This document shows, piece by piece, positions 13,297-33,228 of a stretch of DNA of 64,000 nt. Location of the stretch: positions 186,001 to 250,000 of the forward strand of contig NZ_LR130574.1 of the NCBI RefSeq assembly GCF_900625025.1, given 5' to 3'. Made by a program: the position numbers and the translations under genes. Under the pieces are notes generated by a model. The model saw only the letters and a program-made list of their open reading frames with translations. It did no database searches and had not been told where the DNA came from. Position 1 is the stretch's first letter. Every line of letters begins with the position of its first letter. The DNA comes from Lachnoclostridium sp. Marseille-P6806 (GTDB lineage: Bacteria; Bacillota; Clostridia; Lachnospirales; Lachnospiraceae).

Positions 13297-14334
13297 TCAG
13301 TCCGTCCGGCCGCTCCGCAGCGGAATCGGCGAGGTGTACGCCCGCCTCCCCTCTCTTGTCAGCAGCTCCGCGCGGAGATAAAACTCCCCGGGTTCCGCAT
13401 GGTAATCCACGCTCCCGCCCCTCACGCCGCGCACGCGCTGAGGCACCCAGATGGCGTTGCTGTAAAACACCGCCGTCATCACATCGGCCGAGCAGTCGAT
13501 ATGCAGGTCGCCTCTCTCCTCATCGAGCTGCACGTCGTAGATGAGGGGCCCGCGGCTCGCGTAGAACTGCCCGTCCCGAAGCCCGGCGAGGATGCTGCCG
13601 CTCGTGAGCTCCGCCGCCTTTACCATTGTGAAGCTACGGCACTGATCCCCGTTGTAGCTGTGCGCGTCATCCCCTGCCACCGCCGGCATCAGGATGCCGT
13701 GGTGGGTCGCCCAGATGTCAAACCACGCCGAAGCATCCGCCCTCTCGCCATTCCACGGGATATCCGAGACGGCGTTATAGATCTCCGCTGCCGCAAAGCC
13801 CTCCACCTCCCGGAGCCCCGCCGGATCCATGACGGACCATGCGGGATGGCAGAGAACAGCGATTCCGCCATTTCCCCGGATATGATCGACAATCTCCTGC
13901 GGCGCCGGATGCGGGCAGCGGAGGAATGCCTCGTCGCCTGTATCCTCCGTCATGCCGATGCCGAGAATGTGCCATGTCGCCACATCGCCGGGCATCCGCG
14001 TATTGGCGCCGCCGGTGTCCCACTCGACGCCGGACAGGAGCAGCATGTTCTCCGGCACAGAAAGTCTCTCCCCGAAACCGTTCTCTCCGGTGCTGTTCTC
14101 TTTCGTGCCGTTCTCTTTGGTGCTGTTCTCTCCGGAAAGCACCCCGCTCCGGCCGGGCTCCAGCGTAATGCCCGGACGCCGGTGATCGGTCAGCGCGGCA
14201 AAGTCGTAGCCCGCCCGGTGATAGATATCAAGAGCCTCCTGCGGGGGCAGCTTACCGTCCGACCGCGTACTGTGCATGTGGAGATTTCCTTTGTACCAGC
14301 TCCCGTCTGTCCGGAAGATCGAATGAAACGACAT
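13297..14334 (-). CDS. PHP-domain metal-dependent phosphoesterase
   Basis: A 345-residue PHP-superfamily hydrolase. Metal-binding motifs are HMHSTRSDG (H19, H21), ALTDHRRP near residue 50, AVLCHPAW, and GDDAHSY toward the C terminus. Such proteins usually hydrolyse phosphoesters or phosphorylated sugars with divalent metals; the substrate here is unknown. Residues around 66-85 are four degenerate repeats of a five-residue unit rich in ENST/ENGT, encoded by a 15-bp tandem repeat. They look like a surface-loop expansion after the TDH motif. The gene is preceded by the structured repeat element at 14346-14568. Confidence 0.85.
   Translation of the reverse strand: MSFHSIFRTDGSWYKGNLHMHSTRSDGKLPPQEALDIYHRAGYDFAALTDHRRPGITLEPGRSGVLSGENSTKENGTKENSTGENGFGERLSVPENMLLLSGVEWDTGGANTRMPGDVATWHILGIGMTEDTGDEAFLRCPHPAPQEIVDHIRGNGGIAVLCHPAWSVMDPAGLREVEGFAAAEIYNAVSDIPWNGERADASAWFDIWATHHGILMPAVAGDDAHSYNGDQCRSFTMVKAAELTSGSILAGLRDGQFYASRGPLIYDVQLDEERGDLHIDCSADVMTAVFYSNAIWVPQRVRGVRGGSVDYHAEPGEFYLRAELLTREGRRAYTSPIPLRSGRTD
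14078..14137. repeat. In-frame 15-bp minisatellite, four units, inside the PHP gene
   Basis: Four consecutive 15-bp units with core GTTCTCT (plus strand) begin at 14078, 14093, 14108 and 14123. Units differ at a few positions and keep the frame. Confidence 0.85.
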
Positions 14335-14345
14335 GGTAATCCTTT

Positions 14346-14568
14346 ATGCCGAAGCACTTTGTGCAAGGCACGCGCCGTAAAATCCGCGCAGGCGGTTTTA
14401 CGGCTGCGATCAGGGGCAATTTGGGCTTCGGCACAAATTGCCGTGTGAAGCATCTCTGCGCCGGCGCACAGAGATGCGAGCCGCTTCGCGTCTCATGCCA
14501 TCCCACTACGTGGCAGCACTTTTCGCTCACGGAGCAAATCAACGCATCAGCGTGATTTTTCACACTAT
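14346..14568 (-). repeat. Modular structured intergenic element, copy 1 (order A-B-C-D)
   Basis: A 223-bp non-coding element filling the gap between the LacI stop and the PHP start. Modules on the plus strand are A 14346-14382, B 14383-14449, C 14450-14536 and D 14537-14568. Hairpins include 14375-14382 with 14396-14403 (8 bp), 14415-14423 with 14434-14442 (9 bp), 14450-14458 with 14469-14477 (9 bp) and 14478-14494. A second copy with B and C exchanged lies at 33005-33228. Because both copies lie in minus-strand gene order, any RNA would probably be read as D'-C'-B'-A'. Confidence 0.85.
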
Positions 14569-14574
14569 CCTTTC

Positions 14575-15660
14575 TTATCCGTGCAAAAGCGGTGAAGCAA
14601 CGTCCCCGGCGGCCTGCTGCGAAGCATTTGATTTTGCCGGACCTGAGGACTCCCGCACAGCGAGCTCCGCCGGCATCAGGATGGTCTCAGGCTTTCCCTT
14701 TTTCCCGATCATATCAAAGAGCAGCCGGATTGTCTCCTCCGCCATCTCCTCTGCGGGCTGAACAATCGTCGTAATCCGGGGCGCATAGAAGTTCCCGATC
14801 GCAATCCCGTCATAACCCGTCACGGAAATATCCTCCGGAATCCGGAGCCCCGCATCCAGAATGGCGCGGCAGGCGCCGATGGCAAAAATATCGGCGATGC
14901 AGAAGACCGCCGTGAACGGCTCGTCCGAGGCGAGGAGCTTTCTGGCCTCCTCATAGCCGTTTTCTATCGTGTAGTGCTCATTCCCGTTGGGCACCACCTC
15001 GCGGACGAGCTTCGGATCCGCCGTGAGCCCGTGCCGCCGCAGCGCGTCCGAATAGCCCTGATAGCGGAGCTGACCGACCGACGGCACGCTGACCGCGTCG
15101 GTGATGATGGCGATCCGCCGATGCCCCTGCCCGATCAGATAGTCGATCAGTTTTTCGGATTCCAGCCGGTCGTCCACCGCGACATTCGCATACCATGTCT
15201 GCTCCCCCTGCGGCATGCCGACTGTACTGAACACAAACGGCACTTTGAGCTGGCGGAGCATCACCTCGTCGTGAGTGAAATTACCCCCGAGGAATACGAG
15301 GCCGCGCAGGCGCTTTTCCTTGACAAGCTGCAGCGCGACCTGCACTTCATCCTCCCGCGCCTCCACATGGCGGAGGATCGTCGTATAGCCCAGCTTCTGC
15401 GCGCGATCCTCCATAACCTGTATCATGCGGTTAAAAAACTGATTGGTGATGCCCTTGATCAGCAGAGCGATGCTCCGCGCATCGCTCTTTTTCAGATTGA
15501 TCGCGCTGTTGTTCGGCACAAAGCCGGTCTCGGCGATCACCTCCATGATCTTGCGGCGGGTCGTCGGATTGATGTCCGGATGGTTGTTGATCGCACGGGA
15601 CACCGTGCTCACGCCCACGCCGCACAGACGCGCAATGTCTCTGATCGTTGTCTCTCCCAT
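14575..15660 (-). CDS. LacI-family transcriptional regulator
   Basis: A 361-residue repressor with the LacI helix-turn-helix at residues 4-25 (TIRDIARLCGVGVSTVSRAI) and a hinge containing NNSAINLKKSDARS. It is followed by the sugar-binding core with GYDGIAIGNFYAPRITTI near residue 280. It begins 7 bases after malQ, whose 3' end supplies the TGAGG binding site, so it is the last gene of the maltodextrin-type operon. It probably binds the three CCGG-NAACGNTN-CCGG sites at the operon promoter and responds to a malto-oligosaccharide or related sugar (inference). Confidence 0.92.
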   Translation of the reverse strand: MGETTIRDIARLCGVGVSTVSRAINNHPDINPTTRRKIMEVIAETGFVPNNSAINLKKSDARSIALLIKGITNQFFNRMIQVMEDRAQKLGYTTILRHVEAREDEVQVALQLVKEKRLRGLVFLGGNFTHDEVMLRQLKVPFVFSTVGMPQGEQTWYANVAVDDRLESEKLIDYLIGQGHRRIAIITDAVSVPSVGQLRYQGYSDALRRHGLTADPKLVREVVPNGNEHYTIENGYEEARKLLASDEPFTAVFCIADIFAIGACRAILDAGLRIPEDISVTGYDGIAIGNFYAPRITTIVQPAEEMAEETIRLLFDMIGKKGKPETILMPAELAVRESSGPAKSNASQQAAGDVASPLLHG

Positions 15661-32300: not shown

Positions 32301-32994
32301 TTTCCATCGCCGGGTAGATGCGGACAAGCTCCAGCGCCTCGATCCGCCGCTGCGTCAGTACGTCAAAGCTGCGGATCGACTCGATATTATCGTCCCAGAA
32401 CTCGATGCGGACCGGGTTGTCCTCCGTGAGGTCAAAAATATCCACAATATCGCCGCGAACCGCAAACTGCCCCGGGCTGTCCACCTGCGCGTTTCTCTCG
32501 TAGCCCATGGCCGCCAGACGCTTGGTGACGGTCTCGAGACGGATCGTCTCATTTTTGGATATGCCAAGAACGCTCTCCCGCAAAAGGGCGAGCGGAAGCT
32601 GCGGCGTCATCAGCGCCGCAAAGGTCGCGACCACCGTGACCGGACGTCCCTCCAGTATCCGGCGCAGGCAGCGCAGGCGCTGTATTTCAATCTCGCGGCT
32701 GCGCAGATCCGCCTGATAAAAGATGAGGTCCTTGGCCGGAAACAGCATGGTATTGCGATCATAGAGCAGGCAGTCGTCATAGATTTCCCGCGCCCGAAGA
32801 TCGCTGTATGTCAGGAACAGTCTCGACTTTGCCCGGCTCTGCAGCGCTTCATCCGAGGCAAGCGCAAAGGCGAGATGAACTTTCTGGGAATCCACGCAGC
32901 CGTCCGCCGCGGCCTCACCTCTTTGGGGACGGAGGGAGGCAAGCATGGCTTCGTACTGGGGAAATCCTTTCAGCGGAGAAAATAGCGTTTTCAT
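29341..32994 (-). CDS. mfd: Transcription-repair coupling factor
   Basis: A 1217-residue Mfd that releases RNA polymerase stalled at DNA lesions and recruits UvrA. Domains in order are a UvrB-like N-terminal module, a CarD-type RNA-polymerase-interacting domain (about 508-575, [18 protein letters not shown]), a RecG-like helicase with GDVGYGKT (about 664-671), a Walker B DEEQRFG (about 765) and TATPIPRTL, and the C-terminal TRCF domain. The ATG at 32994 follows GGTGAT; an in-frame ATG at 33006 would use bases from the repeat element. An Ala/Pro/Glu-rich linker interrupts the region after the helicase. Confidence 0.96.
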
Positions 32995-33004
32995 GATAAT
33001 CACC

Positions 33005-33228
33005 ATGCCGAAGCACTTTGTGCGAGGCACGCGCCGTAAAAACACCCTGCGCCGGCGCGCAGGCTGCCGAGCCGCTCCGCGGCTCATGCCATCCCTCTAC
33101 CTAACAGCATTTTTCGCTCGCTGAAAGGTCCGCGCAGGCGGTTTTGCGGCTGCGATCAAAGGCTATTTGGGCTTCGACACAAATAGCCGTATAAAAAATC
33201 GGCGCATCAGCGTGATTTTTCACACTAT
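33005..33228 (-). repeat. Modular structured intergenic element, copy 2 (order A-C-B-D)
   Basis: A 224-bp relative of the element at 14346-14568. Modules on the plus strand are A 33005-33041, C 33043-33128, B 33129-33197 and D 33198-33228, so B and C are exchanged. Hairpins are kept: 33161-33169 with 33180-33188 (9 bp, one compensatory A-T to T-A change) and 33069-33085 (7-bp perfect stem where copy 1 has a mismatch). It occupies the whole gap between the pth stop and the mfd start, and D overlaps the last codons of pth. Confidence 0.85.

Follow-up and report, generated by a model that had tools for sequence, protein, structure and literature searches.

The BOX repeats of Streptococcus pneumoniae are described, in the parts of the source available to us, as composite small intergenic repeats with constant ends and a variable number of boxB modules; their predicted fold has a middle module largely independent of the ends, and they are thought to have spread as parasitic elements (PMC3049150). 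The ERIC (or IRU) and YPAL (or RU-2) repeats of enterobacteria are, in the available parts of their description, small structured intergenic repeats, of which ERIC is co-transcribed with its neighbours, while YPAL has no TA ends, contains internal inverted repeats and is accompanied by target duplications of 3-26 bp (PMC2229807). The TAACTGA repeats of Beggiatoaceae are reported, in the portion of the source at hand, to be abundant, forward-oriented and located immediately upstream of start codons, where they are suggested to be sites of post-transcriptional regulation; they are tandem repeats of a heptamer with few Shine-Dalgarno sequences nearby (PMC4679880).

The element analysed here, which was first noticed as two repeats in a window of 64,000 nucleotides (the whole stretch of DNA that was analysed), resembles BOX in architecture, as far as the latter is described, being a composite small repeat with constant ends and an optional or repeated middle module. 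In contrast to BOX, its block plugs into one of two stems, it ends in a Shine-Dalgarno sequence directly before start codons, and its fold, which includes a loop-tail pairing, covaries across genera. It is small, structured and intergenic, as ERIC and YPAL are by their description. The enterobacteria, which host ERIC and YPAL, belong to a different phylum from the source genome. Unlike the present element, those repeats have no Shine-Dalgarno targeting described for them in the available parts of PMC2229807. With the TAACTGA repeats it shares the forward orientation and the location just before start codons, but it is a folded element, about 140-300 nt long, with a Shine-Dalgarno sequence of its own. 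The element is probably best read as one of the same kind as the small modular repeats BOX, ERIC and YPAL, and its fold may also act in translation.

The original prediction recognised no known family, and this was borne out. No Rfam 15 model reached its gathering score in the window, nor on the elements of loci L161 and L266. When E-values up to 1 were allowed at six loci, the matches overlapping the element stayed far below threshold: AS-pc01 with 31.5 and 29.1 of 79 bits, and TD-1, at the edge of the element, with 28.1 of 64.5 bits. Models of group II intron RNA gave no match in the window, their one match being a separate intron at L205. Scans of two copies (L008, L266) revealed no terminal inverted repeats of the kind that characterises MITEs. 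Inverted repeats of at least 8 nt correspond there to the internal hairpins and to the pairing of loop and tail, apart from one 9-nt subterminal pair in L008 that is absent from L266. A literature search found no description of the element, a search of an open-access library for three of its sequence strings returned 0 papers, and the available parts of PMC10085705 and PMC8632094 do not describe it.

Two copies in the window

The two repeats, at 14346-14568 and 33005-33228 on the minus (gene) strand, are real: blastn of one copy against the other returns four shared blocks with 36/37 (97%), 68/82 (83%), 63/78 (81%) and 33/36 (92%) identical positions and E-values from 5e-22 to 1e-10, the inner two in exchanged order. 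By part, the copies are 92% identical in the head, 81% in the optional block, 83% in the H2-H3 part and 97% in the tail. In gene-strand order, copy 1 comprises the head, the block, the H2-H3 part and the tail, which the original prediction had lettered D, C, B and A, respectively (a second lettering, used in the analysis scripts, calls the block B and the H2-H3 part C). Copy 2 comprises the head, the H2-H3 part, the block and the tail. The repeats had also been said to fill exactly the gap from stop codon to start codon, which is wrong for both. Copy 1 ends 6 nt from the upstream stop codon (14575-14577) and 11 nt from the start codon (14334), and copy 2 overlaps the stop codon of pth (33220-33222) and falls 10 nt short of the start codon of mfd (32994). 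The remaining 11 and 10 nt before the start codon hold a Shine-Dalgarno-like stretch in the two copies. Copy 1 lies downstream of a gene for a LacI-type regulator and upstream of one for a CehA/McbA-type metallohydrolase (NCBIfam; no match in Pfam), and copy 2 is flanked by pth and mfd. Neither a promoter nor a terminator was found around copy 1 in the region searched (14300-14620).

In gene sense, the element reads H1-H2-H3-H4-Shine-Dalgarno-start codon, and its shortest common form is about 142 nt long. H1 consists of GTGTGAAAAATCA paired with TGATTTTTCACAC, H2 is a stem around the loop TGCCGAAGC, H3 is a long stem with a bulged A, and H4, TGCC..GCAC-AAA-GTGC..GGCA, is followed by the Shine-Dalgarno-like stretch and the start codon. 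Copy 1 has the form H1[block]-H2-H3-H4 and extends on the minus strand from H1 to the Shine-Dalgarno-like tail over 14338-14566 (covariance model R2, 125.3 bits, E 4.1e-29; blast blocks). The H1 5' arm, the loop and the start of the 3' arm, part D of the original prediction, occupy 14536-14566 (from the sequence and a head match at 14543-14566). They are followed by the optional block of subfamily 1, part C, within the H1 3' arm (14456-14535, from block comparison). Hairpin H2 lies at 14415-14442, and its loop TGCCGAAGC (14425-14433) is complementary to the tail GCTTCGGCA, as seen in the sequence, in the long-range pairing of the minimum-energy fold and in covariation. Hairpin H3 with its bulged A (14371-14408) is seen in the sequence and in covariation, and H4 with the tail, part A (14347-14370), matches its pattern with 0 mismatches. 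The Shine-Dalgarno-like AAAGGATTACC (14335-14345) stands ahead of the start codon at 14334, and AAAGGAT is found again immediately upstream of H1 (14567-14573).

Copy 2, on the same strand at 32997-33226, has the form H1-H2-H3[block]-H4 (R2, 124.1 bits, E 8.1e-29; E-values of the covariance models are rough throughout). From sequence and fold, its H1 is uninterrupted (33189-33226) and its H2 (33161-33188) carries the loop TGTCGAAGC. The H3 5' arm and tip (33129-33154, from sequence and block comparison) are followed by the optional block of subfamily 2 with its edges, again part C (33043-33128, from block comparison), which lies within the H3 3' arm, and by the remainder of that arm (33030-33042, from sequence). 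H4 and the tail, part A, match their pattern with 0 mismatches (33006-33029), and the sequence GGTGATTATC (32995-33004) is the Shine-Dalgarno-like stretch ahead of the start codon of mfd at 32994 (assigned by NCBIfam TIGR00580).

The optional block

The original prediction interpreted the two orders as a swap of modules. Two orders are indeed seen, but the swap itself is not what happened: parts A, B and D keep a constant order, and part C is an optional block of about 80 nt located within the 3' arm of H1, as in copy 1, of H3, as in copy 2, or of both, so that elements carry zero, one or two blocks. We collected 41 block matches and read their neighbours; 32 of the blocks were at least 74 nt long and 27 of these could be assigned to one site. 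The nearest neighbour of a block was at the same site in 26 of the 27 cases, with block identities of 0.88 and 0.87 within the sites and 0.77 between them. The block therefore comprises two position-specific subfamilies, an H1-site and an H3-site one, and a literal module swap was rejected. Among four complete head-block-tail copies, L025 is clearly and L019 partly chimeric, with a first half of the H1-site and a second half of the H3-site subfamily, and the other two are not. Recombination that removed the stretch between two blocks would leave such chimeras. Together with the position-specific subfamilies, they fit insertion and deletion between repeated parts, not free exchange. The module variants would stem from an optional block in H1 or H3 and from deletions arising where repeated parts recombined. 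None of 106 loci from other genomes yielded the block, a limited sample whose loci had been selected through the element or ylxR.

The idea, put forward with the original prediction, of RNA modules that fold independently and can be permuted has the two orders in the window in its favour. It is hardly credible, and is refuted in its literal form, since the block subfamilies are position-specific and lie inside stems, and since the head comes first and the tail last in complete copies. The listed exceptions to this order, L030 (A-D-C-A) and L084 (A-C), are read as having an extra tail upstream. Tandem copies, or an additional tail just upstream of the head, were also observed in L094, L104, L041, L132, L112 and L160, suggesting repeated insertion at one site.

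The conserved fold

Both copies fold much better than their shuffled sequences (z -6.44 for copy 1 and -4.28 for copy 2), with 0 of 200 shuffles as good. As the opposite strand of copy 1 folds equally well (z -6.86), the strand cannot be chosen from fold strength alone. The compensatory changes originally noticed between the hairpins of the two copies were confirmed in a far larger set of 50 aligned copies from the source genome and its relatives, in which 42 of the 49 named pairs had changed on both sides. In this alignment, 94.3% of the cells are paired, compared with 77.5% after shuffling and 32-51% with partners slid, counts that lean towards structure because the alignment was fitted to H1-H4. 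Covariation is strong in H1-H3. The helix between the H2 loop and the tail, which lies outside the fitted model, has 86% of its cells paired, and six of its nine pairs changed on both sides. The mean longest complement between loop and tail is 6.40 within elements and 4.38 with permuted tails, the highest of 2000 permutations being 5.14, although the permutation does not preserve relatedness among rows. This test used 58 rows from relatives, reduced to 46 (42 distinct) by dropping seven partial or antisense rows and five with a short loop or tail. In minimum-energy folds, copy 1 forms the long-range loop-tail helix unaided, whereas copy 2 does not. The tail also pairs with the H4 5' arm, where covariation is looser (84-87% of cells paired), so that the two pairings of the tail compete. 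Compensatory changes preserve this fold, H1-H4 together with the pairing of the H2 loop with the tail, in different genera and families.

With regard to the strand, G-U exceeds A-C in H1-H3 by 56 to 21 (12 to 4 for copies of the named set), the bias of a sense-strand structure. The bias is uneven across alignments: the structure-free alignment A1 gives 23 to 21, or 17 to 8 if H4 is left out, the fitted alignments give 179 to 134 and 63 to 44, and the counts of the loop-tail helix are equal at 18 to 18. A role of the sense strand is thus favoured. In several copies, a part of a hairpin appears to be inverted in place with its stem kept. This concerns the H3 tip in L062 and L211 (exactly) and in L214 and L045 (similarly), with TCCGCGCAGGCGG instead of CCGCCTGCGCGGA, and the H2 loop tip in L119:2939-3079.

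Copy number and distribution

The source genome (3.13 Mb in 38 contigs, an incomplete assembly at 96.7%) contains the head in 72 places and the tail in 48 by pattern search with at most 3 mismatches, and reversed-pattern controls gave 0. A DNA search with copy 1 gave at least 63 matches (40 of 169 candidates scored). The covariance model R1, built from 21 copies without the block, gave at least 120 with E-values no higher than 0.01 when 150 of 2525 candidates were scored, the weakest being near that limit. When neighbours within 60 nt were merged, some copies having been matched twice, 113 places remained. The possibility, raised in the original prediction, that the modules occur in just two places and without covariation does not hold, as there are about 100 copies and the covariation is strong. 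The copies are strongly one-stranded per contig, with, for example, 23 of 24 places on the minus strand of C1 and 12 of 13 on the plus strand of C2, which gene orientation along replication may explain.

Searches of the source genome and its relatives revealed a large family that is patchy among relatives of the same order. The DNA search detected the element in 15 of 61 genomes; with stricter filters, R1 detected it in 9 of 245 genomes of the order, three of them from another family, and R2 in 3 of 393 genomes of the class at E up to 1e-5 (source genome counted in each case). By title, 25 named stretches comprise 16 from Lachnospiraceae, 5 from Roseburia, Lachnospira or Lachnoclostridium, 3 from Eubacteriales and 1 from a Bacillus sp. 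Copy 1 had no match in plasmids, and viral contigs searched with one exact pattern gave 0 stretches. Three faecal scaffolds labelled as phage align with 37-39% of a short copy. One of them, MT836788.1 from human faeces, contains a full-length element (L247:601-742, 94.1 bits) and may be phage or bacterial DNA.

Position at ribosome-binding sites

The source genome carries the element at about 100 dispersed sites, in most cases in sense and directly ahead of a start codon. In 80 of 99 distinct copies of the source genome and in 44 of 51 copies of relatives, an ORF of at least 50 codons begins within -4 to +13 of the tail end, most often at +2 or +3. For ATG alone in the same interval, the counts are 73 of 99 and 42 of 51, compared with 261 of 1920 random sense positions. 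On the other side, GGAG, GAGG or AGGA occurs in the 14 nt before H1 in 30 of 51 copies of relatives (control 5) and in 42 of 99 own copies (control 22), the latter figure being diluted because many own matches are incomplete at the head. A further set of 25 loci, collected by an exact 22-nt head pattern alone and scanned with a second model, gave 29 matches. Among the 22 best of these, a start codon follows in 19 and a Shine-Dalgarno-like 5' flank is present in 17, the set containing at least one orthologous pair (L163, L169).

A conserved cis-regulatory RNA, that is, a riboswitch-like leader inherited with its genes, would account for the deep covariation, the pseudoknot-like loop-tail pairing and the position directly before start codons. 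Nevertheless, the downstream genes show no association with one pathway: out of 73 distinct downstream proteins with an ATG start, the 27 that were chosen and searched are unrelated to each other, and the genes include pyrB, pyrI, pyrE, purC, guaB, trpS, lepA, clpB, mfd, glmM and ribF. The toleration of the optional block and of loop insertions among copies also argues against such a leader, which is very unlikely, and which the empty sites described below largely refute. The element precedes both pyrB and pyrI in L008 (362-503 and 1508-1733), and a copy in a Lachnospira MAG (L252) precedes a gene that reads like pyrI. Downstream genes common to distant genomes (pyrI, and larC by its N-terminus) are at about chance level by our own estimate. 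In another genome, a T-box-like leader (L123:1241-1461; 83.4 bits, gathering score 93) lies directly upstream of an element at 1501-1638.

A regulatory effect of the fold on translation is possible. Sequestration of the Shine-Dalgarno sequence was rejected, the accessibility predicted with a pseudoknot-free method being 0.38 for 46 element leaders and 0.42 for 48 ordinary genes of the window (p 0.31). A mini-ORF in the head (GTG TGA after the upstream Shine-Dalgarno sequence) was rejected as well, as heads elsewhere read AGAGTGA, AGATTGA and similar.

Empty sites and mobility

At the nusA-ylxR locus, R2 has a match in the source genome and in 0 of 29 loci of relatives (ylxR in 51 of 61 genomes; 30 loci fetched), a comparison that is weak alone because the 29 loci come from distant relatives. 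In L178 and L179, the nusA-ylxR gap of other relatives holds what seem to be unrelated short tandem repeats. Of two named MAGs that share about 95% identity in the compared parts (91-98% over matched loci), the first contains 51 R2 matches and the second 48. Five of the 15 best copies of the first MAG have a matching filled site in the second (G656), and the other ten were queried by their joined flanks. Seven of these ten sites are contiguous and empty in the second MAG and three are without match, which speaks against inheritance of a leader with its genes. At all seven polymorphic sites, the element lies in sense, preceded by a Shine-Dalgarno-like stretch and followed by the start of the downstream gene; this start would be TTG or GTG in L248, and TTG in the empty counterpart of L272. 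Compared with the empty sites of this near relative, the element separates a native Shine-Dalgarno-like stretch from the start codon, and a filled site has one such stretch on each side of the element. An empty site could reflect either a precise excision or a target not yet occupied.

At five of the seven sites, the element is flanked by repeated segments of about 6 to 14 nt, clear in L266 (14 nt) and L272 (12 nt) and shorter in L248, L274 and L264, although the shorter ones may belong to the tail of the element itself. They are partial in L250, and one side has decayed in L268. General tests of target duplication were not significant (p 0.136; 0.204 for own copies and 0.108 for those of relatives), and the named set, which mixes genomes, gave p 0.002. 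In L266 and L268, the 3' tail matches the empty target and not the element's own subfamily. The seven empty sites are more similar to the tail of the element than other Shine-Dalgarno sequences are (0.673 vs 0.549), in a post hoc and small test with windows of unequal length and a control set that includes at least one target site.

A search for a mobilising enzyme in two families, Y1 transposases and reverse transcriptases, identified none. The Y1 transposase family PF01797 has 0 matches in the source genome, in its incomplete (96.7%) assembly, and the control matched in 5 of 14 genomes. A hairpin element acting at the DNA level, of the REP or IS200-IS605 (PATE) sort, in which the hairpins serve a single-strand transposase and the RNA is inert, would be in line with hairpins near both ends, a fixed orientation to the target motif and the strong folding of both strands. 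This reading is improbable in view of the lack of a Y1 match in the source genome, the conservation of internal hairpins and of the loop-tail pairing, and the copies with target sequence repeated on both sides, which single-strand (Y1-type) transposases are, to our knowledge, not known to make.

The one reverse transcriptase match in the source genome (PF00078, 465 aa) lies within the group II intron at L205 (G000:C4:295370-295996). It leaves room for an RNA-mobilised, SINE-like element, whose Shine-Dalgarno-like 3' tail would pair with the Shine-Dalgarno sequence of the target and prime reverse transcription, perhaps by the intron enzyme in trans. Sense insertion into ribosome-binding sites, the repeated segments at five polymorphic sites and the tail-like empty sites are consistent with this route. 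It is improbable all the same, as there is no direct sign of reverse transcription, the segments are partial or decayed at the other two sites, and the likeness of the tail comes from the small post hoc test.

Discussion

The original prediction left the choice between a structured RNA and a mobile element assembled by module exchange. The element is structured, with compensatory pairing, is present elsewhere and is mobile, whereas its assembly by module exchange did not stand. In all likelihood, it is a small, non-coding and non-autonomous mobile element that targets Shine-Dalgarno sites and has a conserved fold, with block variants in H1 or H3. Targets would be chosen through the likeness of the element's 3' tail to the Shine-Dalgarno site. 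The downstream gene would retain a ribosome-binding site at normal spacing, and insertion would be tolerated because the tail of the element restores that site. More tentatively, a tail that pairs either with the H4 5' arm or with the H2 loop could let the transcript switch between forms and modulate translation. There is a small chance that the element goes further and acts as a portable translational switch. It would then be an RNA that spreads by itself to Shine-Dalgarno sites and brings dozens of unrelated genes of one genome under a single two-state leader (tail-H4 vs tail-H2 loop), and its transposition would build a post-transcriptional regulon.

Small bacterial repeats are usually regarded as passive intergenic passengers. 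The present family joins insertion mostly at ribosome-binding sites, a self-supplied Shine-Dalgarno sequence that keeps the gene readable, and an RNA fold whose long-range interaction is conserved across genera and families. Its many natural replicate insertions before unrelated genes, together with the empty sites of near relatives, make effects on translation and mRNA stability, and the mechanism of target choice, directly testable.
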